Of a stretch of DNA of 64,000 bases, positions 4,362 through 38,413 are shown piece after piece; positions within the stretch are counted from its first letter, which is position 1, and each line of letters starts with the position of its first letter. Where the stretch lies: assembly GCF_004924335.1 (NCBI RefSeq), contig NZ_CP024633.1, forward strand, positions 2,976,001 to 3,040,000, in the 5' to 3' direction. The notes beneath the pieces were generated by a model. That model saw only the letters and a program-made list of their open reading frames with translations. It did no database searches and was not told where the DNA came from. The translations under genes and the position numbers were made by a program. The DNA is from Mycobacteroides salmoniphilum. Lineage in GTDB: Bacteria > Actinomycetota > Actinomycetes > Mycobacteriales > Mycobacteriaceae.

Positions 4362-5842
4362 TGCTCCAGGCCGAGAACCTGTGTGCCCCAGTCCCATACC
4401 TCACCGAACAGTGTGGGCTCATCCGACAGACTGATACCCAGCGACGGGATCATTTCCTTGAGTTTGGGCATCCAGTTGGCGAACCGGTCAGGGAAGCACC
4501 GCTGCATGACGTCGAGCATGGCCGGCACCGCGGTGGACGCACCCGGCGAGGCGCCGAGCAGGCCGGCAATGCTGCCGTCGGCCGAATTGAGCACCATGGT
4601 GCCGAATTCGAGCGCACCACCCTTGCCCTTGGCCGGCCGAATGACCTGCACGCGCTGGCCGGCGGTGATCAGCTCCCAATCGGAACGCTGTGCCTTGGGC
4701 GCGAATTCGCGCAGCATGTCGATCCGGTCATCCGGAGTGAGACGCAGCTGGCTCAATAGGAAAGTCGCGAGCTTGAACTCGGTGAGACCAACGCCGACCA
4801 TCGATGCAAGGTTGTTGGGCTTCACCGACGCGGGCAGGTCGGTGACCTTGCCCATCTTGAGGAATTTGGGCGACCATCCGGCGAACGGCCCGAACAACAG
4901 CCATTCCTTTCCGTTGATCACCCGGGTGTCCAAGTGCGGCGCCGACATCGGCGGTGCACCGAGTGGCGGGAAGCCGTAGACCTTGGCCTTGTGGCCCTCG
5001 GTGAGGTCGATGTTGTTGGTGCGCAGGAAGGCGCCGCTCACCGGGAACCCGCCGAAGCCCTTGGCTTCCGGGATTCCGGCCTTCTGCAGCAGACCCAGTG
5101 CCCCGCCACCGGCGCCGACGAACACAAACTTGGCTTTGAGCTTGCGCTTCTCGCCCGTGCGTCCGTTGACCAGCTTGAGGATCCATCCGCCGTCGCTTTC
5201 ACGGCTGATGTTGCGGACCTCGGTGCCGAAGATCGCGCTGGTGCCGCTGCGAACGCCGAAGCCGACCAACTGCTTTGACAGCTCACCGAAGTCGACGTCG
5301 GTACCGTCCTGGCTCCAGTTCAACCCCACCGGATCGGAGAAGTCGCGTCCGGCCGCCATCAACGGCAGGCGACGCGCGAACTCATCGTCGTCGTTGATGA
5401 ACTCCATCTTCGCGAACAGCGGGTTACCGGCCAGGGCATCGTGGCGCTTGCGCAGATACTCAACCTTGTCGGCTCCGTGCACGTAGCTCACATGTGGGAT
5501 GGGGTTGAGGAACCCGCGGACGTCGGGCAGCACACCGTTCTCCACGGCGTACGCCCAGAACTGGCGCGATACCTGGAACTGCTCGTTGACCGTGACGGCC
5601 TTGGTGATGTCAATCGAGCCGTCAGCCTTCTGCGGCGTGTAGTTGAGCTCGCAGAGTGCCGAGTGACCGGTACCCGCGTTGTTCCACGGGTCGCTGCTTT
5701 CGCTCGCGGCCGCATCGAGGCGTTCGATCAAGGTGATCGACAGGTCCGGTTCGACCAATCGCAGCAAGGCGCTGAGCGTCGCGCTCATGATCCCTGACCC
5801 AATCAGGGCAACGTCTGTCTGCTCCACCTGCGCTTTTGACAC
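4358..5842 (-). CDS. mqo: Malate:quinone oxidoreductase
   Basis: This membrane-associated FAD enzyme oxidises malate to oxaloacetate and passes electrons to the quinone pool, replacing or supplementing NAD-linked malate dehydrogenase. The 494-residue product has an N-terminal Rossmann FAD site ([16 protein letters not shown]) and the characteristic [18 protein letters not shown] block that follows it. The frame is open 21 codons further upstream. The GTG at 5842 is preferred because AAAGGA lies about 9 nt before it and because the FAD motif then sits close to the N-terminus. It heads the unit mqo - acetyltransferase - chelatase - cobO - cobB, with 4-bp overlaps at its first two junctions. Confidence 0.93.
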
Positions 5843-28438: not shown

Positions 28439-29317
28439 CTAGATAAACAGGGTCAACACAATCCAGGTGGCGACGGCCGAGGGCAGCAGGGAATCGAGCC
28501 GGTCCATGATGCCGCCGTGTCCCGGCAGCAGAGTGCCCATGTCCTTGATACCCAAGTCGCGCTTGACCTGGGACTCGACCAAGTCGCCGAGCGTTCCGGT
28601 GAGGACAAGCATGATGCCCAGGGCAACACCGACGAATGGGTGATGCCCGAGCAGGAATGTCACCGCAAGGGTCGACGCGGTCGTCCCCACCAGTAGGGAG
28701 CCTGCCAAGCCCTCCCAGGATTTCTTGGGACTGATCGCGGGCGCCATCGGATGCTTGCCGAACAAGACGCCCGCCGCGTAACCGCCGATATCGGAGAATG
28801 TGACACCGAGCATCAGACAGAACACCTGCTCCGCACCGTTTTCCGGGTAGACCAGCAGCGCGCCGAACGACGCGAACAGCGGGATCCACGCGGCAACGAA
28901 CACCGTGATGGCGACATCGCGCAAATAGTTCACCGGCTGCTCGTTCAAGCCGTGCCCAACCAGACGCCAGATCATGCAGACCACGACGGTGGCGCCAAAC
29001 GCACCAAGCGCACCGGCGGTGCCCCACGGCCACGTCAGCCAGATCATCGCCTGCCCGCCCAAGAACAGCGGGATGAACGGCACCGAGATATCGGCCTGGC
29101 GCAGCCGCTTGGTCACCTCCCACATCGCGATCCCGAGGAAGACCGAGATGATCCCGACCCAGATCTCCTTCTGGTACAGCAGCGCGAAAATGATCATGGC
29201 GGCGAGGACAACGCCGACGCCGATGGCGGCAGGCAGGTTGCGTCCGGCTCGGGACTTCGCCCCCGAAGGGGGCGCGTCGGGCGCCGGAGCGGCGTCGGTA
29301 TCTCCCATGGTCGTCAT
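28439..29317 (-). CDS. cdsA: Phosphatidate cytidylyltransferase (CdsA)
   Basis: CdsA makes CDP-diacylglycerol from phosphatidate and CTP, the precursor of phosphatidylinositol and cardiolipin. The 292-residue membrane protein begins with a hydrophilic stretch and has about eight helices. The signature runs SWEGLAGSLLVG and continues to GDLVESQVKRDLGIKD and HGGIMDRLDSLL near the C-terminus. It is 11 nt downstream of frr and completes the pyrH-frr-cdsA order that is conserved in bacteria. Confidence 0.95.
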   Translation of the reverse strand: MTTMGDTDAAPAPDAPPSGAKSRAGRNLPAAIGVGVVLAAMIIFALLYQKEIWVGIISVFLGIAMWEVTKRLRQADISVPFIPLFLGGQAMIWLTWPWGTAGALGAFGATVVVCMIWRLVGHGLNEQPVNYLRDVAITVFVAAWIPLFASFGALLVYPENGAEQVFCLMLGVTFSDIGGYAAGVLFGKHPMAPAISPKKSWEGLAGSLLVGTTASTLAVTFLLGHHPFVGVALGIMLVLTGTLGDLVESQVKRDLGIKDMGTLLPGHGGIMDRLDSLLPSAVATWIVLTLFI

Positions 29318-29328
29318 TACCGGGGCCC

Positions 29329-29886
29329 CTAGACCTCCAGTAACTCGCCTTCTTTGTGCTTCACCAACTCGTCGATCTGGGTCACGTACTGGGACGTGGT
29401 CTTGTCCAGATCCTTTTCCGCGCGGCCCACTTCGTCCTCACCGGCCTCGCCGTCCTTCTTGATCCGGTTGAGCTCGTCATTGGCTTTACGACGGATGCTG
29501 CGCAAGGTCACCTTGGCGTCCTCGCCCTTGCCCTTGGCCTGCTTGACGAGCTCACGGCGACGTTCCTCGGTGAGCTGCGGGACGGCGACGCGAATGATGC
29601 TGCCGTCATTGCTCGGGTTCAACCCCAGGTCCGAATTGCGAATCGCCTCCTCGATGGCCTTGAGCTGATTGGCCTCGTAGGGCTTGATGACCACCAGGCG
29701 GGCCTCGGGCACGTTGATGCCGGCAACCTGCGTGATGGGCGTGATTGTGCCGTAGTAGTCGATGACTACCCGCTGGAACATGCTCGGATTGGCACGCCCG
29801 GTGCGAATCGTCGCGAAGTCATCGCGGGCAACCGCCACGGCCTTTTCCATTTTCTCCTCGGCATCGAGAAGAACCTCGTCGATCAC
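29329..29886 (-). CDS. frr: Ribosome recycling factor
   Basis: Frr releases the post-termination ribosome together with EF-G. The 185 residues form the usual length and include [19 protein letters not shown], the hinge region and the C-terminal helix [22 protein letters not shown]. Translation starts at a GTG. It lies 13 nt after pyrH and 11 nt before cdsA. Confidence 0.97.
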
Positions 29887-29899
29887 GATTGATCTCCCA

Positions 29900-30625
29900 T
29901 CATGGTGTTACCAGCGTTCCGATCTTCTCACCTGCGACCGCCCTGGCGATATTGCCTTCGGTAAGCAGGTTGAACACCAGGATCGGCATCCGGTTGTCCA
30001 TACACAGACTGAATGCGGTGGCATCGGCGACCTGCAAGCCACGGTCGATGACCTCGCGATGGGTAATCTCCGGCAGGAACTCGGCGTCGGGATTGGCGCG
30101 CGGATCATCGGTGAAGATGCCGTCGACCGCCTTGGCCATCAGCACCACCTCGGCGCCGATCTCCAGGGCCCGCTGCGCAGCGGTGGTGTCGGTGGAGAAG
30201 TACGGCAGTCCCATGCCGGCGCCAAAGATGACGACGCGCCCCTTCTCAAGATGCCTTCTGGCCCGCAACGGAATGTACGGCTCGGCCACCTGCCCCATGG
30301 TGATGGCGGTCTGCACGCGCGTGACAATGCCTTCCTTTTCCAGGAAGTCTTGGAGCGCAAGGCTGTTCATGACGGTGCCCAGCATGCCCATGTAGTCCGA
30401 GCGCGTCCGCTCCATGCCGCGCTGCTGCAGCTGCGCGCCGCGGAAGAAGTTGCCGCCGCCAATCACGACCGCGACCTCGGCACCGCTGCGGACCACCTCA
30501 GCAATCTGGCTGGCCACCCTGTGGACCACATCGGGGTCAAGACCGACAGCTCCCCCGCCGAACATCTCGCCGCCGAGCTTGAGCAGCACCCGCTTATATC
30601 CGGTGCGGCTCACATCGCGAGTCAT
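29900..30625 (-). CDS. pyrH: UMP kinase
   Basis: PyrH phosphorylates UMP to UDP in pyrimidine biosynthesis and forms a hexamer in bacteria. The 241 residues show [26 protein letters not shown] and a C-terminal [10 protein letters not shown] stretch, all family signatures. The ATG at 30625 has GAGGAGG just upstream; 20 further codons are open beyond it. It is the first gene of the pyrH-frr-cdsA unit. Confidence 0.96.
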
Positions 30626-30746
30626 CACGCCTCCTCGGTACGGGTTCGACAAAGCCGGTGCGCAAAACACAGCCATCGGGCCCACTGCTTCCGCTCTTCA
30701 CGCAAGCGGCTCATCGTAAGGCCGCGACGGCGGTGTCTATCCTGCC

Positions 30747-32993
30747 CTATTGGGCGACGCTCGTTGGCACGACCCGGCGAACCGAGCCTGGGTCGGCTGT
30801 GGTTTCGGTGAGGCCGACGAGCGCGTGCGGCAAGGGCGCCACGTGCAGCACCCCGAGACGTTGGGTGGCTCGAGTGAGCGCCACATAGAGCTCGGCCGCA
30901 CCTCGTGGGCCGTCGGCCAGGATCCGTTCCGGTGCCACCACCAGGACGGCGTCGAACTCCAGGCCCTTGGTCTCCGAAGCGGGCACCGTGCCCGGCACAC
31001 CCGGCGGCCCGATCACCACACTCGTACCCTCCCGGGACTCCTCATCATGTGTGAATTCCTCAATGGCTTTGGGCAATTCGTCCTCGGCGAGATGCCTGGA
31101 CCAGGGTAAGACGCCACATGAACGAACGGATTCGGGCGGCTGGGTACCCGGCGCGAACTCGGCCAGCAGCGCCGAGGCGACTGCCATGATCTCGGCGGGA
31201 GTGCGATAGTTCACCGACAACGGCCGGTACAGCCAGCGTCCGGGTACGTACTGCGACAGGATCGCGTCCCAGGAGGTGGCGCCGGCCACCGATCGGCGCT
31301 GAGCCAGATCCCCGACCACGGTGAACGAACGACTCGGGCAGCGGCGCATCAACACCCGCCAGTCCATTTCGGACAGTTCCTGCGCCTCGTCGATCACGAT
31401 GTGCCCGTATGTCCAGTCCCGGTCGGCTGACGCACGTTCGACGAGGTCGCGGGTGTCGCGTTCGGTGAAGCGTTCCGCCAGGTCTTCAGCACCGAGTAGA
31501 TCGGTGGCGAAGAGGTGGTCCTCGTCGTCCATCATGTCTTCGCGACCGGTCATCATGTCGAGTACACCGGAGGCGTACTCGGCCTCGGCCCTGCGTTCAC
31601 GCTCGGCGGCGTCTTCCGCCGCCTTGTCGCGGCCCACCAGATCGATCAGCTCATCGAGCAGAGGTACGTCTGAGATCGTCCACGCGTCACCGGCGGCGCG
31701 TGCCAGCGCCGGATCCGCACCGGCAGCACGTAGCCGCTCTGGTGAGGTGTACAGCTCCGACAACAGCGTCTCCGGTGTCAGTGTCGGCCACAGGTCGTCG
31801 AGCGCGGCGGCGAATCCCTCGTGATCCCCGAGTTCGTCCAGCAGCTCCGCACGCAGGTGCTCCCAGGCCTTGCGGTCCTCACGCGTGAGCCACCCCTTGC
31901 CGATGCGCGGGATCGCCCGCTCGGTGAGCGCCCATGTCAGAACGTCGGTGAAGACAGTCCGCGCGTCGTTGTGCGGGAGTCTGCTCGCACGCGCCTCGTC
32001 GATCGCCCATTGCGCGATATCGGCATCGATGCGCACCGAGACATCGGTGAGCTGGATCCGTATTGGCTCCGCGGGGGTCCGCTGCCGATCGGCGACCGCC
32101 GCTGCGAGCACGTCGAGAATCTGCAACGAGCCCTTAAGCCGCGCCGCATCTGCGCCATCCTCTGCCGTGGCCTTCAGACCCGGCAACAGATCTCCCGCCG
32201 TCGTGAACACCACATTGGTCTCGCCCAGCGATGGCAGCACCCGCGAAATATGGCTCAGGAAGGCCGCATTCGGGCCGACAACCAACACGCCGTGGCGTTC
32301 CATGCGCTGGCGCTGGGTGTACAGCAGGTAAGCGACGCGGTGCAATGCCACAACGGTTTTGCCCGTACCAGGCCCGCCCTCGATGACTAGCACACCGGGA
32401 TGATCGAGCCGAATGATCCGGTCTTGTTCGGCCTGGATGGTCGCCACGATGTCGCGCATTCCGTTGCCGCGCGGTGCGTTGACGGCCGCGAGTAGCGCCG
32501 CGTCACTCATGCTCCCGCGTTCACCGTCGTGGTCGTCGCTGTCCGGACGTCCGAGAAGCTCGTCGGCGAAGGCATCGACATGACGTCCCCGAGTCCGGAA
32601 TTGACGTCGCCGTCGGGTGTTTTCCGGATTGGCCCCCGTCGCGGTGTAGAAAGCCTGCGCCACCGGAGCCCGCCAATCGATCAGCAGTGGCTCGTAGTCG
32701 TTCGTCTTGTCGAGCAGGCCAATGCGCCCGACGTAGCAGTGCTCACCCGTGAGGGCGTCCAACCGGCCGAAGCACAGCCCGTCATCGGCGACATCCAAGC
32801 GCTGTGCCTGCCGGGCCAACGCGCGCACCTCGTCATCTCGCTCGACCATCGCCGCGCCGTTCTGCTGATCGACCGGGCCGCGCAGGGCGCTGCGGTATCG
32901 CCCCTTGACGCGTGCACGTTCGGCGTCCAGCAGCTCGTAAAGTCCGGCGATGTACTCCCGCTCGGATTCCAGTTCTTCTTCATATGTCGTCAA
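30747..32993 (-). CDS. helR: HelR-type helicase-like RNA polymerase factor
   Basis: This 748-residue UvrD/Rep-like protein has an N-terminal coiled region rich in Glu and Arg, a Q-motif-like IQAEQDRIIRL, Walker A GGPGTGKT at 206-213, and VIDEAQELSEMDW near 540. It resembles HelD/HelR proteins, which bind RNA polymerase rather than unwind DNA. Mycobacterial HelR displaces rifamycins from RNA polymerase and contributes to tolerance (recalled knowledge from M. abscessus). The TTG start has GGGGAA upstream. A rifamycin-associated element lies about 84 bp before the start, which strongly supports the HelR call. Confidence 0.9.
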   Translation of the reverse strand: MTTYEEELESEREYIAGLYELLDAERARVKGRYRSALRGPVDQQNGAAMVERDDEVRALARQAQRLDVADDGLCFGRLDALTGEHCYVGRIGLLDKTNDYEPLLIDWRAPVAQAFYTATGANPENTRRRRQFRTRGRHVDAFADELLGRPDSDDHDGERGSMSDAALLAAVNAPRGNGMRDIVATIQAEQDRIIRLDHPGVLVIEGGPGTGKTVVALHRVAYLLYTQRQRMERHGVLVVGPNAAFLSHISRVLPSLGETNVVFTTAGDLLPGLKATAEDGADAARLKGSLQILDVLAAAVADRQRTPAEPIRIQLTDVSVRIDADIAQWAIDEARASRLPHNDARTVFTDVLTWALTERAIPRIGKGWLTREDRKAWEHLRAELLDELGDHEGFAAALDDLWPTLTPETLLSELYTSPERLRAAGADPALARAAGDAWTISDVPLLDELIDLVGRDKAAEDAAERERRAEAEYASGVLDMMTGREDMMDDEDHLFATDLLGAEDLAERFTERDTRDLVERASADRDWTYGHIVIDEAQELSEMDWRVLMRRCPSRSFTVVGDLAQRRSVAGATSWDAILSQYVPGRWLYRPLSVNYRTPAEIMAVASALLAEFAPGTQPPESVRSCGVLPWSRHLAEDELPKAIEEFTHDEESREGTSVVIGPPGVPGTVPASETKGLEFDAVLVVAPERILADGPRGAAELYVALTRATQRLGVLHVAPLPHALVGLTETTADPGSVRRVVPTSVAQ

Positions 32994-33076
32994 CCGGATG
33001 TTCCCCGTTTTCGTTCTAGTTCATGGCATCTGACATTCAGCCTGTGATATTCAGCCTGCGATTGTGCGGTATGACC

Positions 33077-33096
33077 GGGGTCTTGCCGCAAGCCCC
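33077..33096 (-). promoter_or_regulatory. Rifamycin-associated element upstream of helR
   Basis: Read on the minus strand, the 20 bp are GGGGCTTGCGGCAAGACCCC, an imperfect inverted repeat close to the actinobacterial rifamycin-associated element as I recall it. It sits between the pnuC stop and the helR start, upstream of helR. Such elements mark genes induced by rifampicin. Confidence 0.85.
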
Positions 33097-33129
33097 CCTG
33101 TCCGATATATGTTGAAAGGGGCGGGTTAT

Positions 33130-33708
33130 TCATATCGAGTGGGCGGCTGCCACCGTGCGCAGCTCTTTTCTCCAGCTCCACAGGCCGACAGCGGCCATGA
33201 CGGTGAGGAACACGTAGAAGCCCGCCGTGAGATTGAGTCCCTTGAACAGGTAAACACCCACAGAAAACGCGTCGGTGACGATCCACAGGGCCCAATTCTC
33301 GATCCATTTCCGGTTCATCATGAATTGGGATACGACGCTGAACCCAGTGATTACCGAATCAAGCTGAGGGGCATTGGAATCGGTGAAGGTGACCAGGAAT
33401 GCATAGAGCCCTGCCACCAGGACGGCCAAAGACACTGCCAACGGCAGCCACGCCCACGACGGCGTCCGCCGCACCGCGACGCCGTGCCGACTCTGACTCC
33501 CCCAGCGCCACAGATACCAACCCTGCACGGCCAGCGCGATAAACATGATCTGCAGGGCAGCATCGGCGTACAGGGTCTGCCGGGCGAAAACCACGATGTA
33601 GAACAGGGAGCTGACGATCGCTACCGGGAAGGTCCAAATATTCTGGCGGACAGCCAGGACGACGAACAGCACACCGGCCATGCTGCCGATTAGCTCAGTC
33701 CAGTCCAC
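33130..33708 (-). CDS. pnuC: Nicotinamide riboside/NMN transporter PnuC
   Basis: The 192-residue membrane protein shows the PnuC layout: hydrophobic helices such as IGSMAGVLFVVLAVRQNIWTFPVAI in segments, the conserved NIWTFPVAIVSS, YADAALQIMFIALAVQGWYLWRWG, and a late RKWIENWALWIVTDAFSVGVYL. PnuC takes up the NAD precursor nicotinamide riboside by facilitated diffusion, driven by intracellular phosphorylation. Start is a GTG. It is divergent from a small P-loop kinase whose role could be related, though that is not demonstrated. Confidence 0.9.
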   Translation of the reverse strand: MDWTELIGSMAGVLFVVLAVRQNIWTFPVAIVSSLFYIVVFARQTLYADAALQIMFIALAVQGWYLWRWGSQSRHGVAVRRTPSWAWLPLAVSLAVLVAGLYAFLVTFTDSNAPQLDSVITGFSVVSQFMMNRKWIENWALWIVTDAFSVGVYLFKGLNLTAGFYVFLTVMAAVGLWSWRKELRTVAAAHSI

Positions 33709-33744
33709 CGGAACAGGTTAGCCGAGCACCAGTAAGCTCGCGCC

Positions 33745-34359
33745 ATGGCGACACCGGCCCGACTGCGGAGCTTCTCGTGGCTGGCCGGGCTCATCAACGA
33801 GAGCCGGCCACAGTGCGGTGACGTGCGCGTCGTCGCCATCGACGGCAGGGGCGCCGCTGGCAAGAGCACCTTTGCTGCGCGATTACACACCGCACTGTCG
33901 GCGACAACCCCGGCGGTGGTCCTGCACACCGATGACTTCGCATCCTGGGACACGTTCTTCGGTTGGTGGCCCCGGTTCGAGGAACAGGTACTGACGCCCT
34001 GGGCGCACGGCAAGCCGGCCCAGTATCGACGTTACGACTGGGAGACCCGTGAGTTCGGCCCGCAGGAGCAATGCCCACCACCATCGGTGCTGATCCTCGA
34101 GGGCGTCGGGTCCGGCCGCTCGGCCGCCGCCGGCCAGTTGAGTTCGCTGATCTGGGTACAGACCGACCAGGCAACCCGCCGTCACCGCGCCGAGGTTCGC
34201 GATGGCGCGGAGCTGCGCGACTTCTGGCGCCTGTGGATTGACGCCGAAGACGAGCACTTCCGCCAGGATCCCACCGCGGAACGCGCCGACATCACCGTCG
34301 ACGGTAACCCCGAGGTGGTCCTGGACGACCCGGACCGCTACTTCCTGCTCAGCGGTTAA
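33745..34359 (+). CDS. Uridine-kinase-like P-loop protein
   Basis: The 204-residue protein has a Walker A loop in VAIDGRGAAGKSTFAARL and an acidic segment VVLHTDDFASWDTF resembling nucleoside kinases of the uridine kinase family. A likely Walker B/base is LILEGVGSGR. It is divergent from pnuC (36 bp apart) and convergent with the GH1 gene, overlapping its stop by 4 bp. A role in phosphorylating a nucleoside such as nicotinamide riboside brought in by PnuC is speculative. Confidence 0.75.
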   Translation: MATPARLRSFSWLAGLINESRPQCGDVRVVAIDGRGAAGKSTFAARLHTALSATTPAVVLHTDDFASWDTFFGWWPRFEEQVLTPWAHGKPAQYRRYDWETREFGPQEQCPPPSVLILEGVGSGRSAAAGQLSSLIWVQTDQATRRHRAEVRDGAELRDFWRLWIDAEDEHFRQDPTAERADITVDGNPEVVLDDPDRYFLLSG

Positions 34360-35741
34360 CGCAGCGGAACCGTCGGCCCCTTCGGATCCAGTGGCGCACA
34401 GCTGTCCTGCCCCACCGTCGTGGAGCATTTCGCCACCGGGATCACCGGGCGATAGCCGGGTGCGGTGCCCGCGTCCCGGGTGATCTGCGTATAGGCCTGG
34501 ACGGCATCGGTGGGCACGCGCTTCAGCGCCGGATCACCCAGCGCGTCGACGGTGTACAGACCGAAACGTGGCCGGTAGCTTCCCCATTCGTAGTTGTCGA
34601 CCAAGGACCAGTAGTTGTACCCGATGATCGGAATACCGTCGGCCTTGGCCCGCTGCAGCCAGAAGACGGTGTCGCTGAGGTACTGCGACCGGGTCACGCC
34701 ATCTGACCGCGGTTTTCCGTTATCGGTGACCATGCCGTTCTCGACGACGTAGATCGGCAGCCCGGGATATCGCTGCGCGTAGTGCCGCGATACGTAGTAG
34801 ATGTCTTCGGGCTGCAGTTTGATGTTCCAGCGCGCAGCCATGCTTTGCCCCGATGCGGGGTTATCCGCCGCGGTGCCGGTGTAATAGTCGAACCCCAGGT
34901 AATCCAGACTGCCGGCGACCCGGTCGAAGAACGATCCCTCGATCCCCTTCACCCCGAAACCTGCGAACTGCGCCAACACATCCGGCGGGATGTAGGCCTC
35001 GTTGGTCGTCACTTTCGCCTTGGGGTCGGCCTCGTGTGCGGCCCGGTACACGGCGCGGTGGGCCTCGGCGACCCTGTCCAGAAACCCCTCGAACTGGTCG
35101 GGCTTGATCGCGCCGGTACGTACCTCCATCGCCCCGAAGGCCAGCGGTTCGTTGATGCTGACCCACAGCACCCCTTGCCCGGCATAGCGTTTGGTGATCG
35201 CCTTGGCGAAGTCTTCGAATGCCGCGACGTTGTTCATAAACCCGCCGCTGTCGGCAACCCAGCCCGGGTACACCCAGTGCATGAGCGTGATCATCGGCGT
35301 CATGCCGTTCTCGCGCAGCGTGGCGACGATGGAGTCGTAGTACGCAAGTTCCTTCTCGTCCCACTTGCCCGGCTCGGGCATGACCCGCGACCACTCCAGT
35401 CCGAACCGAAATGTATTGACGCCCATGGCATGTGCATTGGCGATGTCCTCGGCGTATCGGTGGCGAAAGTCGTCTGCCTGCCGGTACGGATCGACGGGCC
35501 CGTCCCCGAGGGGGTTGGATTGATCAGCCACCGCGGGCATGCCCGCGGCGCGGTCGACGTAGCGGCGCCAGTTGCTGTCCGGGGCACTCCCCTCCACCTG
35601 GTAGCCCGCGGTGGCAGTGCCCCAATAGAACCCACGGTCCCACGCCGAATCGTCCCCTGCGCCCTCCTGCCGGGGGCTGCAGGCGGTCAACCCCACCGCG
35701 AACACGACTGCCGATGCCATGACGGCGCTCATCCACTTCAT
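34356..35741 (-). CDS. Glycoside hydrolase family 1 lipoprotein
   Basis: The 461-residue precursor has a lipobox ending GLTAC (Cys21), so the enzyme is predicted to be anchored outside the membrane. The GH1 catalytic pair is present: acid/base Glu198 in SINEPLAFG and nucleophile Glu334 in YVVENGM. GH1 enzymes cleave beta-glycosides; the natural substrate is unknown. GH1 proteins are mostly cytosolic, so an exported lipoprotein form is unusual. The ATG directly follows a 29-bp palindrome, without a Shine-Dalgarno sequence, so translation may be leaderless. A TetR gene lies just upstream. Confidence 0.85.
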   Translation of the reverse strand: MKWMSAVMASAVVFAVGLTACSPRQEGAGDDSAWDRGFYWGTATAGYQVEGSAPDSNWRRYVDRAAGMPAVADQSNPLGDGPVDPYRQADDFRHRYAEDIANAHAMGVNTFRFGLEWSRVMPEPGKWDEKELAYYDSIVATLRENGMTPMITLMHWVYPGWVADSGGFMNNVAAFEDFAKAITKRYAGQGVLWVSINEPLAFGAMEVRTGAIKPDQFEGFLDRVAEAHRAVYRAAHEADPKAKVTTNEAYIPPDVLAQFAGFGVKGIEGSFFDRVAGSLDYLGFDYYTGTAADNPASGQSMAARWNIKLQPEDIYYVSRHYAQRYPGLPIYVVENGMVTDNGKPRSDGVTRSQYLSDTVFWLQRAKADGIPIIGYNYWSLVDNYEWGSYRPRFGLYTVDALGDPALKRVPTDAVQAYTQITRDAGTAPGYRPVIPVAKCSTTVGQDSCAPLDPKGPTVPLR

Positions 35742-35770
35742 GCTAAAACCATACACTGTATGGTTTTAGC
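35742..35770. promoter_or_regulatory. 29-bp perfect palindrome, probable TetR operator
   Basis: Two 14-bp arms, GCTAAAACCATACA and its exact complement, flank a single central base at 35756. The site includes the stop codon of the tetR gene and touches the GH1 start codon. On the minus strand TATGGT lies 6 bp before the ATG, a plausible -10 for a leaderless transcript. Bound TetR would cover it (inference). Confidence 0.7.
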
Positions 35771-36347
35771 GGAGCAGCTGCTCCCACACCCGGCGCATGT
35801 GCTCACCCATATCAATGGACGGGTCCGACATCCATTGGATCTGAATGCCGTCGGCGGCGGCTATCAACGCGGTGGCGGCAAAATCGGCATCGACATGCGC
35901 GGGCACCCTGCCGTCGGCCTGACGTCCCCGCACATAATCGGCGACGCGGGCACGCATCCTTTCGTACCGGTCACGCAAATACGCCCCGGCGGGATGCCCC
36001 GGATCGACCGCCGCGGCGGCGGCCAACGACAGATAGACCGTCCCCGAGCCGGGCTTACTCGCCTTGTCCAGCATGGCCTGCGCCAGCACCTCACCCGGAT
36101 CGATCTCTGCGGTCGAGTTCCGATACCGCTCTTCGAATGTGGCATCGGCGCCGCGTTGGATCTCGGTGAGAATCACGTCCCGCGCCGGGAAGTAGTGCAT
36201 GAGTCCGGCCAAACTGATGTTGGCCTCCTTGGCGATGACGCGCATCGAAGCGCCCGCCTCCCCGTCGCGCTCCAACACCGTCAACGCGGCGGCGAGGATT
36301 TCCCGGCGCTTGGCCTCCCCTTTGGCGTATCGCCCGACAGCTGGCAT
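35766..36347 (-). CDS. TetR-family regulator of the GH1 gene
   Basis: The 193-residue protein has the TetR N-terminal helix-turn-helix ASMRVIAKEANISLAGLMHYF and a helical ligand domain. Its stop codon lies inside the 29-bp palindrome in front of the GH1 lipoprotein gene on the same strand. The likely arrangement is that this regulator represses the GH1 promoter and releases it in response to a sugar or glycoside-derived signal; the ligand is unknown. It lies downstream of the tsf terminator and so probably has its own promoter. Confidence 0.88.
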   Translation of the reverse strand: MPAVGRYAKGEAKRREILAAALTVLERDGEAGASMRVIAKEANISLAGLMHYFPARDVILTEIQRGADATFEERYRNSTAEIDPGEVLAQAMLDKASKPGSGTVYLSLAAAAAVDPGHPAGAYLRDRYERMRARVADYVRGRQADGRVPAHVDADFAATALIAAADGIQIQWMSDPSIDMGEHMRRVWEQLLR

Positions 36348-36369
36348 GGCCGAAGGCTAGCGCACAAAC

Positions 36370-36411
36370 AACTCGGCCCCGCACAGGAACGAATCCTGGC
36401 GGGGCCGAGTT
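36370..36411 (-). terminator. Intrinsic-type terminator after tsf
   Basis: Perfect arms AACTCGGCCCCGC (36370-36382) and GCGGGGCCGAGTT (36399-36411) enclose an inner CAGGA/TCCTG stem. The hairpin starts 12 nt after the tsf stop. It is followed on the minus strand by a moderately T-rich TGTTTGTG run. It is long and GC-rich, as expected of mycobacterial terminators. Confidence 0.8.
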
Positions 36412-36423
36412 ATTTTAAGCGAG

Positions 36424-37242
36424 TTAGGCCTGTCCAACCTCGAACCGCGCGAAGCGGGTCACGGTGACACCGGCCTCGTCGAGAAGGGCCTTGACGGTCT
36501 TCTTGCTATCGGACACCGACGCCTGATCCAGCAGCACGACATCCTTGTAGTAACCGTTGACGCGACCCTCGACAATCTTGGGCAGCGCCTGCTCGGGCTT
36601 GCCTTCCGACTTCGCGGTCTCCTCGGCGATGCGACGCTCGTTCTCGACCACATCGGCCGGAACGTCCTCACGCGTCAGGTACTTGGCCTTGAGCGCGGCG
36701 ATCTGCAGTGCGACCGAGTGCGCGGCCTCGGTGCCAGATCCCGTGTACTCGACCAGCACGCCTACCGCGGGCGGCAGGTCAGCAGCACGCTTGTGCAGGT
36801 AGGTCTCCACGGTGCCGTCGAAGTACGCCACCCGGCGCAGCTCCAGCTTCTCGCCGATCTTGGCGGAAAGGTCGGCGATGGCCTGCTCGACCGTCCGGCC
36901 GTCCTCGACCTTGGCGGCCTTGAGGGCGTCCAGATCACCGATCTTGCCGGCCGCGGCCGCACCGACGATGATGTCGGCGAGCCCCTGGAACTCGGCGTTC
37001 TTGGCGACGAAGTCGGTCTCTGCGTTCAGCTCGACCAGCACACCGTCACGCGCGGCAACGAGGCCCTCGGCGGTCGCACGCTCAGCGCGCTTGCCAACGT
37101 CCTTGGCACCCTTGATGCGCAGCACCTCGACGGCCTTGTCGAAATCACCATCGGACTCGGCCAGGGCGTTCTTGCAGTCGAGCATTCCGGCACCGGTCAG
37201 TTCCCGGAGCCGCTTCACATCGGCAGCAGTGAAATTCGCCAT
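36424..37242 (-). CDS. tsf: Elongation factor Ts
   Basis: EF-Ts exchanges GDP for GTP on EF-Tu. The 272-residue protein has the N-terminal signature [16 protein letters not shown] and [17 protein letters not shown] of the core domain. Its ATG is at 37242 and the rpsB stop is at 37243, so the two genes abut and are expressed together. A strong hairpin follows the stop. Confidence 0.97.
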
Positions 37243-38124
37243 TTAGCCTTCCTCGGTTGTGGTTTCGGTAGCAGCAGCTTCGGCGGCCGGAGCCTCTGCA
37301 GCCTCAGCGGCCGGAGCCTCTGTGGCATCGGCAGCCTCAGCGGCCGGAGCCTCTGCGACGGCGGAGGCAAGCAATTCCTGCTCCCACTCGGCGAGCGGCT
37401 CGGCGGCCTCTGGCTTCTCGTCGCCACCGGCCAGACCGGAGCGGGCCTGGAGGCCCTCGGCGATCGCGGAAGCAACGACCTTGGTGAGCAGCGCAGCGCT
37501 GCGGATCGCATCGTCGTTGCCCGGGATCGGGTAGTCGACGACATCGGGATCGCAGTTGGTGTCCAGGATCGCAATGATCGGGATGTTCAGCTTGCGGGCC
37601 TCGGCAACAGCGAGGTGCTCCTTGTTGGTATCCACCACGAAGATCGCCGAAGGCACCTTCTGCATATCCCGGATACCGCCGAGGCTGCGCTCAAGCTTGT
37701 TCTTCTCACGCGTGAGCATGAGGATTTCCTTCTTGGTGCGTCCCTCGAAGCCACCGGTCTGCTCCATGGCCTCCAGCTCCTTGAGGCGCTGCAGACGCTT
37801 GTGGACGGTGGAGAAGTTGGTGAGCATGCCGCCCAGCCAGCGCTGGTTCACGTAGGGCATGCCGACGCGGGTCGCCTCTTCGGCGATCGGCTCCTGAGCC
37901 TGCTTCTTGGTGCCGACGAACATGACCGAACCACCGTGGGCGACGGTCTCTTTGACGAACTCGTACGCCTTGTCGATGTAGGTCAGCGTCTGCTGCAAGT
38001 CGATGATGTAAATGCCGTTGCGGTCGGTGAAGATGAACCGCTTCATCTTGGGGTTCCAACGACGGGTCTGATGCCCGAAGTGCGCGCCGCTGTCAAGCAG
38101 CTGCTTCATTGTTACGACGGCCAT
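37243..38124 (-). CDS. rpsB: 30S ribosomal protein S2
   Basis: S2 binds the body of the 30S subunit. The 293 residues start [20 protein letters not shown], include [11 protein letters not shown], and end in a long Ala/Glu/Pro-rich extension (from about residue 225) with repeated APAAEAA units that is typical of mycobacterial S2. The ATG at 38124 follows AAGGAA; 47 spurious codons are open upstream. The gene is followed directly by tsf. Confidence 0.97.
37298..37355. repeat. 25-bp direct repeats in the S2 C-terminal tail
   Basis: Two identical 25-bp units, beginning GCAGCCTCAGCGG, lie at 37298-37322 and 37331-37355. They encode the Ala/Glu-rich tail of S2, and a related shorter copy precedes them. 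Repeat-driven length changes in this disordered tail would be tolerated. Confidence 0.8.
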
Positions 38125-38193
38125 GGTGAGCCATTCCTTTATGTTGTCGGTTGCCGCCCGGGATCGGGTGATCCTGGGCCCTAGCGTCTGCTG

Positions 38194-38228
38194 ATGCCGG
38201 GACCCACCTGGATGGGACCGCCCGGCAT
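38194..38228 (-). promoter_or_regulatory. Hairpin in the rpsB leader
   Basis: Arms ATGCCGGG (38194-38201) and CCCGGCAT (38221-38228) enclose an inner CCCA/TGGG stem. The hairpin lies about 70 bp before the rpsB start and could be part of a 5' leader structure. A 12-bp palindrome, CACGAGCTCGTG, lies just upstream at 38235-38246. No known S2 leader family is recognised. Confidence 0.4.
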
Positions 38229-38413
38229 GCTGGTCACGAGCTCGTGGGCAGACGCGCGAAGTCAACCCGCTAGGCGAGTTGCGCTGATGAGTTTACATGC
38301 CGCGACGAGTGCTTTTCGCCACGTCTCGAAGGATTGCGCCAGAGCTCCGGCAGTTATCCACAGCGCCCTCATGGCTCTTTCCCGCACCGCCCTCGTCCGG
38401 TCACCATGACGTC

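Follow-up and report, generated by a model that had tools for sequence, protein, structure and literature searches.

The rifamycin-associated element upstream of helR in Mycobacteroides salmoniphilum is likely the shared core of a mirror-image promoter pair

How can rifampicin, which halts RNA polymerase after 2–3 nucleotides (nt) (PMC12802891), switch on the genes that defend against it? The question is raised by a stretch of 64,000 nt from Mycobacteroides salmoniphilum (assembly GCF_004924335.1, contig NZ_CP024633.1, positions 2,976,001 to 3,040,000 of the forward strand; hereafter the window), in which a rifamycin-associated element (RAE) stands upstream of helR. The original prediction, made from the letters of the window, read a minus-strand repeat of 20 base pairs (bp) at 33077–33096 as an RAE and the gene behind it as HelD/HelR-like, and it was right on both. 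It also held the gene to be easily overlooked, a view that fails since published work already links the RAE with helR (PMC8655204). RAE and HelR themselves are published biology. What appears new here, and was missed by the original prediction in respect of the outward arm, is the RAE as the putative centre of a mirror-image pair of back-to-back promoters, one directed toward the resistance gene (gene-ward) and one away from it (outward).

The RAE occupies 19 bp, positions 33096–33078 of the minus strand (full minus-strand read 33096–33077, GGGGCTTGCGGCAAGACCCC), and matches GGGGCTTGCGGCAAGNCCC with zero mismatches. We used GGGGCTTGCGGCAAGNCCC, with 18 specified bases, as the search pattern, allowed at most one mismatch, and took the pattern read backwards as the control; the consensus, which was our assumption at the outset, was borne out by the collected sites. 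The element and its predicted promoter parts are as follows.

33078..33096, minus strand: RAE palindrome GGGGCTTG-CGG-CAAGACCC, 19 bp
33086..33091, minus strand: predicted gene-ward -35 element TTGCGG, inside the RAE, read from the sequence, with its spacing tested across sites
33061..33066, minus strand: predicted gene-ward -10 element CACAAT, 19-nt spacer, predicted start near 33054
33083..33088, plus strand: predicted outward -35 element TTGCCG, inside the RAE, on the opposite strand
33108..33113, plus strand: predicted outward -10 element TATGTT, 19-nt spacer, predicted start near 33120
33145..33164, plus strand: weak terminator-like hairpin, 6 pairs, tail CTTTTCTCC, 25 nt past the expected outward start
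30747..32993, minus strand: helR, 748 amino acids, TTG start

The RAE lies 84 nt upstream of the helR start, and its TTGCGG is 19 nt from CACAAT; it stands before a rifamycin-defence gene and overlaps the predicted -35 element of that gene's promoter. Across the whole genome (4,776,697 bases in one contig), the pattern matched 2 sites with at most one mismatch and the control matched 0. The further copy, found by a search that the original prediction had proposed, lies at C1:502391–502409, 53 nt before the gene of a 141-amino-acid Arr (Pfam Arr-ms, 159.6 bits; NCBIfam rifampin_ARR, rifampin ADP-ribosyltransferase, 169.2 bits, cut-off 130). The two RAEs of the genome are thus divided one each between helR and arr, which a review reports to be the two genes that rifampicin induces most in M. 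abscessus (PMC10719064). When a closely related pattern was searched and 3 mismatches were allowed, 4 extra places appeared in the genome, against 6 matches for the control, and flanking promoter arms were absent by eye in the 120 bp around those 4 places.

To place these two sites in a wider context, we surveyed related genomes. An RAE with at most one mismatch was present in 72 of 98 genomes of the genus (control pattern, 3 of 98), in 199 of 298 genomes of the order, and in 57 of 398 genomes of the phylum. We analysed 187 sites in total, from 102 loci in the genus, 30 loci out of a longer list in the order, and 55 of the listed places in the phylum, where the Mycobacterium repeats L227–L235 (labels in L denote loci) were left out. 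Nearly all sites (181 out of 187) precede one of five kinds of gene, namely arr (38), rox-like monooxygenase (48), helR (66), rgt-like glycosyltransferase (16), and rph (13), and we note that each class was named by its similarity to a single reference. Of the members scanned, one per class, the arr reference lies above its NCBIfam cut-off. The monooxygenase of L141 passes the cut-off of a "hypothetical protein" subfamily; the rifampin monooxygenase model ranks second there and falls short of its own threshold. The glycosyltransferase of L088 and the incomplete phosphotransferase of L194 have the Rgt and Rph models, respectively, as best matches, both below cut-off. No new kind of target gene appeared among the 181 classified sites; the other 6 of the 187 (L164, L183, L196, L204, L267, and L278) are unclassified. 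Palindromic double matches were counted once, as were sites identical over ±40 bp, which reduced 181 sites to 179. Sites were oriented by their own gene, and those without a recognised gene were excluded from the counts of geometry, offset, and hairpins. The sites come from related genomes and are hence not independent.

Conservation around the RAE extends well past the element, from about -39 to +34 of its centre or about 75 bp in 96 unique genus sites. On the gene side of the genus sites, bases 21–26 from the centre read C-A-n-A-A-T, a putative -10 element 19 nt behind TTGCGG. On the opposite strand, outward positions 21–26 read T-A-n-n-n-T, likewise 19 nt behind TTGCCG (TTGCGG if the centre is C). 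Of 179 distinct sites, 177 have the outward TANNNT exactly at the mirror position and 178 have the gene-ward NANNNT, whose first base is C in 167, G in 12, and T in 0. At other offsets between 14 and 32, the outward TANNNT reached at most 2 of 95 genus sites, 1 of 47 named helR loci, and 0 of 27 order sites; the loose gene-ward NANNNT also occurs elsewhere, in up to 22 of 95 genus sites (offset 24). All 41 phylum sites, most of which belong to other families, had both -10 elements, and the geometry is identical before the five unrelated gene families. Exceptions that lack the outward -10 element in the sets used for hairpin analysis were L136 and L144 (genus) and L012, L047, and L085 (named helR loci).

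The two -10 elements thus face in opposite directions, away from the RAE. Among mapped promoters of M. smegmatis, 79% contain ANNNT, and those with TANNNT yield more transcript than those with VANNNT (PMC6448022), so the better -10 sequence is that of the outward arm. The RAE is likely the shared -35 core of a divergent promoter pair, with overlapping -35 elements and a 19-nt spacer on each side, and two opposed putative promoters that share recognition DNA form what is called a bidirectional promoter. The pair is well supported by the aligned sites, and both of its arms would be in use.

The same association was seen in loci that were gathered without regard to the RAE. We collected 150 arr and helR loci by protein similarity alone. 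Where an RAE with at most one mismatch was present (83 loci), the outward -10 element was found in 82 and the gene-ward one in 83; where it was absent (59 loci, at least 5 mismatches), the counts were 0 and 1. Eight loci fell in between, and 7 of them kept the gene-ward -10 element, 5 of those 7 with the outward one. Given an intact gene-ward -10 element, the outward one was kept in 82 of 83 loci with a good RAE versus 5 of 7 loci with 2–4 mismatches (Fisher p 0.015), which is only suggestive of a joint decay of RAE and outward arm. As 40 arr loci were chosen for lying outside the first RAE set, the share of loci with an RAE is meaningless here, while the association between RAE and -10 elements is meaningful. 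Separately, we could recognise no RAE within the 420 nt upstream of arr in 30 of 70 arr loci. Genus-wide, many weaker Arr matches reach only 48–58% identity, and these are perhaps the Arr-X group (PMC13246000).

Outside the genus, the predicted outward RNA often would enter a hairpin whose first base is near the predicted start, as in L256 (GGCAAGGAGCGGGCAGCTCCTTGCC-TTTTGTTTTT). An outward stem starting 30–38 nt from the centre was found in 26 of 41 phylum sites, 19 of 47 named helR loci, 8 of 27 order sites, and 18 of 95 genus sites, compared with shuffle expectations of 5.2, 4.4, 4.5, and 9.9 and with 2, 4, 2, and 12 stems on the gene-ward arm. Tails with 4 or more T among the 8 nt that follow the stem occurred outward versus in the other direction in 20 versus 0 of 26 (phylum), 9 versus 4 of 19 (named), 2 versus 0 of 8 (order), and 5 versus 2 of 18 (genus). 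Stem halves suited their own partner over swapped ones to a degree reached by 0, 0, 3, and 0 of 200 swaps in the genus, named, order, and phylum sets, compared with 38, 18, 188, and 155 of 200 on the gene-ward arm, in a test that ignores kinship of sites. The outward hairpins look like terminators of an outward transcript. In the window, a hairpin search of the outward stretch found 1 (shuffles mean 0.3), and the predicted RNA would run antisense to the end of the neighbouring pnuC. Rfam returned one match for L256, L269, L027, and L002, to a microRNA family and far under the gathering score. The 3' half of the hairpin in L256, L263, L269, and similar loci reads CTCCTTGCC, which we take to resemble the anti-Shine-Dalgarno end of 16S rRNA; this likeness is probably a chance outcome of a purine-rich start.

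The gene behind the RAE of the window encodes an ordinary HelR, a full-length class II HelD/HelR. Its product passes the NCBIfam models HelD_MYCSM (1334 bits, cut-off 1051) and motor_HelR_2 (1332 bits, cut-off 1100) and scores 463 with a third, motor_HelR, under the cut-off of 750. The original prediction was to fall if the protein did not align with HelR/HelD outside the ATPase core; it aligns to M. smegmatis HelD (6yxu) over residues 3–733 of 748 (1116 bits), far beyond that core. The E-D pair at the tip of the primary-channel loop is kept (E491-D492 here, E484-D485 in M. smegmatis), and a loop contact near this tip differs, with T in place of M. smegmatis Q490. Drug release depends on the E-D tip, and its mutation spoils resistance (PMC10719064, review). 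The closest named relatives, at 89–97% identity, are from Mycobacterium sp. D16R12, D16Q13, and D16Q14 and three Mycobacteroides, including M. chelonae.

HelR frees polymerase from the drug, and deletion of half of the RAE abolishes induction (PMC10719064, review). The genes that respond most strongly in M. smegmatis include helD, rox, and arr, and cells that lose helD become more sensitive to rifampicin (PMC6529629). Induction by rifampicin runs through the RAE in M. abscessus and Streptomyces venezuelae, and from these two species and M. smegmatis we infer that the drug would also induce helR in the window strain. In Bacillus subtilis, helD stays silent under a strong antisense promoter as long as rifampicin has not arrested polymerase there (PMC12802891). 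We propose that the RAE may work along related lines. HelR would bind rifamycin-stalled RNA polymerase and expel the drug with its primary-channel loop, as its close homologues do. The RAE would be the middle of two back-to-back promoters of the housekeeping type, with a weak gene-ward -10 element (CANNNT) and a preferred outward one (TANNNT). In the absence of drug, polymerase traffic on the strong outward arm would silence its weak gene-ward counterpart. The RNA of the outward arm would be tiny and, in many genomes beyond the genus, would end at once at a hairpin. Rifampicin would end the outward traffic, and drug-free polymerase would then fire toward the resistance gene. We see roughly even chances that the outward arm belongs to a rifampicin sensor, the silencing and the switching step being those parts that we infer. 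More tentatively, and short of calling it probable, we suggest that polymerase itself may sense rifampicin via the two-way promoter, so that loss of traffic would turn on arr, rox, rgt, rph, and helR across Actinomycetota with no dedicated regulator.

Several points weigh against this proposal. The geometry rests on sequence, and use of either arm is predicted. A consensus promoter scan of the window stretch that required 16–18-nt spacers finds no promoter, the hairpin at 33145–33164 is weak and by eye not conserved in six relatives, and in the genus as a whole the hairpins are weak evidence (18 of 95, against 9.9 in shuffles and 12 gene-ward). Because the -35 elements overlap, an arrest of polymerase on the outward arm could obstruct the gene-ward arm as well; when the B. 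subtilis promoters were brought close enough for polymerases to clash, induction was abolished (PMC12802891). Five bidirectional promoters tested in Escherichia coli had too little basal activity to compete (PMC12825309), and the published view for M. smegmatis is one of two sense promoters (PMC10719064, review). Finally, the action of rifampicin leaves the near-invariance of the outer GGGG and CCC of the RAE unexplained, which suggests a bound protein. Either arrested polymerase quits the RAE DNA quickly or a palindrome-bound protein takes part, and the invariance of the outer bases speaks for the latter.

Such a protein is central to the alternative that survives best, in which an unknown dimeric regulator, sensing either rifamycins or stalled polymerase, would use the RAE as its operator and control the flanking promoters, the outward promoter being real but only a by-product or second target. 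The palindrome is nearly invariant at bases that a -35 element does not need. A 19-nt spacer is typical of promoters under MerR-type protein control, and we considered this for the RAE by eye. Both a review (PMC10719064) and a 2026 paper (PMC12802891) suggest an unknown factor, and the loss of induction upon removal of half of the RAE would fit one; however, what these papers say of the RAE includes no named regulator. A mere by-product, moreover, would not need an outward -10 element kept in 177 of 179 sites or a terminator directly behind it, and the RAE departs from a perfect palindrome at position 6, which on the gene side is G or A instead of C. We regard an operator as possible but rather unlikely.

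It is also conceivable that the box upstream of the RAE is the -10 element of a second sense promoter, P1, so that the RAE would lie between tandem promoters and rifampicin would shift initiation from P1 to P2, as proposed for rpoBC. M. smegmatis helD is reported to have two sense starts, with P1 about 20 bp upstream of the RAE (PMC10719064, review), but a forward box CANNNTA would place its start about 6 bp before the RAE rather than 20, and where a P1 starting 20 bp upstream would need a -10 element we found no conservation of that kind. The bases of the box itself also read better outward. In that direction it is TANNNT, with exactly T, A, and T invariant, whereas forward it is CANNNT followed by an invariant A, and its first base differs from family to family (complement of G 18, C 8, and A 1 in the order set). 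Since the T-rich hairpin tails face outward as well, register and terminator direction leave the tandem reading disfavoured, and we consider it improbable. Least probable is that the flanking boxes are conserved only because whole RAE promoters spread by gene transfer with little time to diverge, for although the RAE precedes mobile-looking resistance genes and many sites come from related genomes, bases beside the boxes vary freely while the mirror bases do not, and the same geometry recurs upstream of five gene families and across several families of the phylum.

The surroundings of helR are housekeeping genes, much as the original prediction had described the pyrH-frr-cdsA setting, with pyrH and frr above their model cut-offs and the cdsA model match below its own.

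28439–29317, minus strand: cdsA, phosphatidate cytidylyltransferase model match (94.5, below the cut-off of 385)
29329–29886, minus strand: frr, above model cut-off
29900–30685, minus strand: pyrH, above model cut-off
33130..33708, minus strand: pnuC, nicotinamide riboside transporter, upstream neighbour of helR in the same direction

Together, pnuC and helR are embedded in an rpsB-tsf ... pyrH-frr-cdsA region (28439–38265) that lies as a whole set on the minus strand, and helR stands between pyrH and pnuC in 6 of the 80 named helR loci (L008–L013). Only 61 bp separate the end of helR from pyrH, and read-through from rifampicin-induced helR could raise pyrH and frr. In M. chelonae (L012), the RAE of helR is degenerate, with 2 mismatches and TTTCGG for TTGCGG; the outward -10 element is lost and the gene-ward one kept. 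Upstream of helR loci without a nearby RAE (L018, L037, L064, and L071), the DNA often resembles, by eye, the end of an rgt-like glycosyltransferase gene, which suggests a putative rgt-helR operon under one RAE farther upstream. At arr in the window's genome (L007), the outward arm of the RAE (4392–4410, plus strand) points at a divergent gene of 423 amino acids (L007:3047–4318, minus strand) that has no NCBIfam match, and this arm could double as its promoter.

Among the PubMed Central full texts listed under CC0, CC BY, and CC BY-SA licences, we found none that describes an outward promoter or an outward terminator at the RAE; primary RAE/HelR papers may mention one. A paper of January 2026 still treats the way the RAE works as unresolved, and it mentions two promoters in sense orientation (PMC12802891). 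The mirror arrangement offers a concrete test of rifampicin sensing on natural templates, and the outward RNA is worth seeking in existing data. Annotation of the RAE would also sharpen, as the full unit says far more than 19 bp.

Compared with known systems, the helR of the window belongs with HelR/class II HelD of M. abscessus (MAB_3189c), M. smegmatis (MSMEG_2174), and S. venezuelae (SVEN_6029), with which it shares full-length similarity, ATPase core, E-D tip, and an upstream RAE (PMC8655204, PMC10719064), and it differs in the loop contact noted above and in adjoining pyrH in this lineage. Its RAE has the same 19-bp sequence as known RAEs, likewise before a rifamycin-resistance gene and overlapping the gene-ward -35 element, but is seen here to belong to a mirror-image unit, about 75 bp long, that has a predicted outward promoter and, in many genomes, its putative terminator. 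Bidirectional promoters of E. coli similarly consist of near-symmetrical DNA that polymerase would occupy in two mutually exclusive orientations, whereas the RAE pair shares a -35 palindrome and is tied to one drug response (PMC12825309). The closest parallel in logic may be the dual-promoter alarm of B. subtilis helD/pps, in which a stronger promoter directed away from the gene likewise opposes a weaker one toward a rifampicin-defence gene (PMC12802891). The B. subtilis promoters face each other, 39 bp apart, while those at the RAE do not face each other and stand back to back with a shared -35 region, an arrangement known from sequence. If our proposal is true, Actinobacteria and Bacillus would respond to rifampicin on one principle laid out in two ways.
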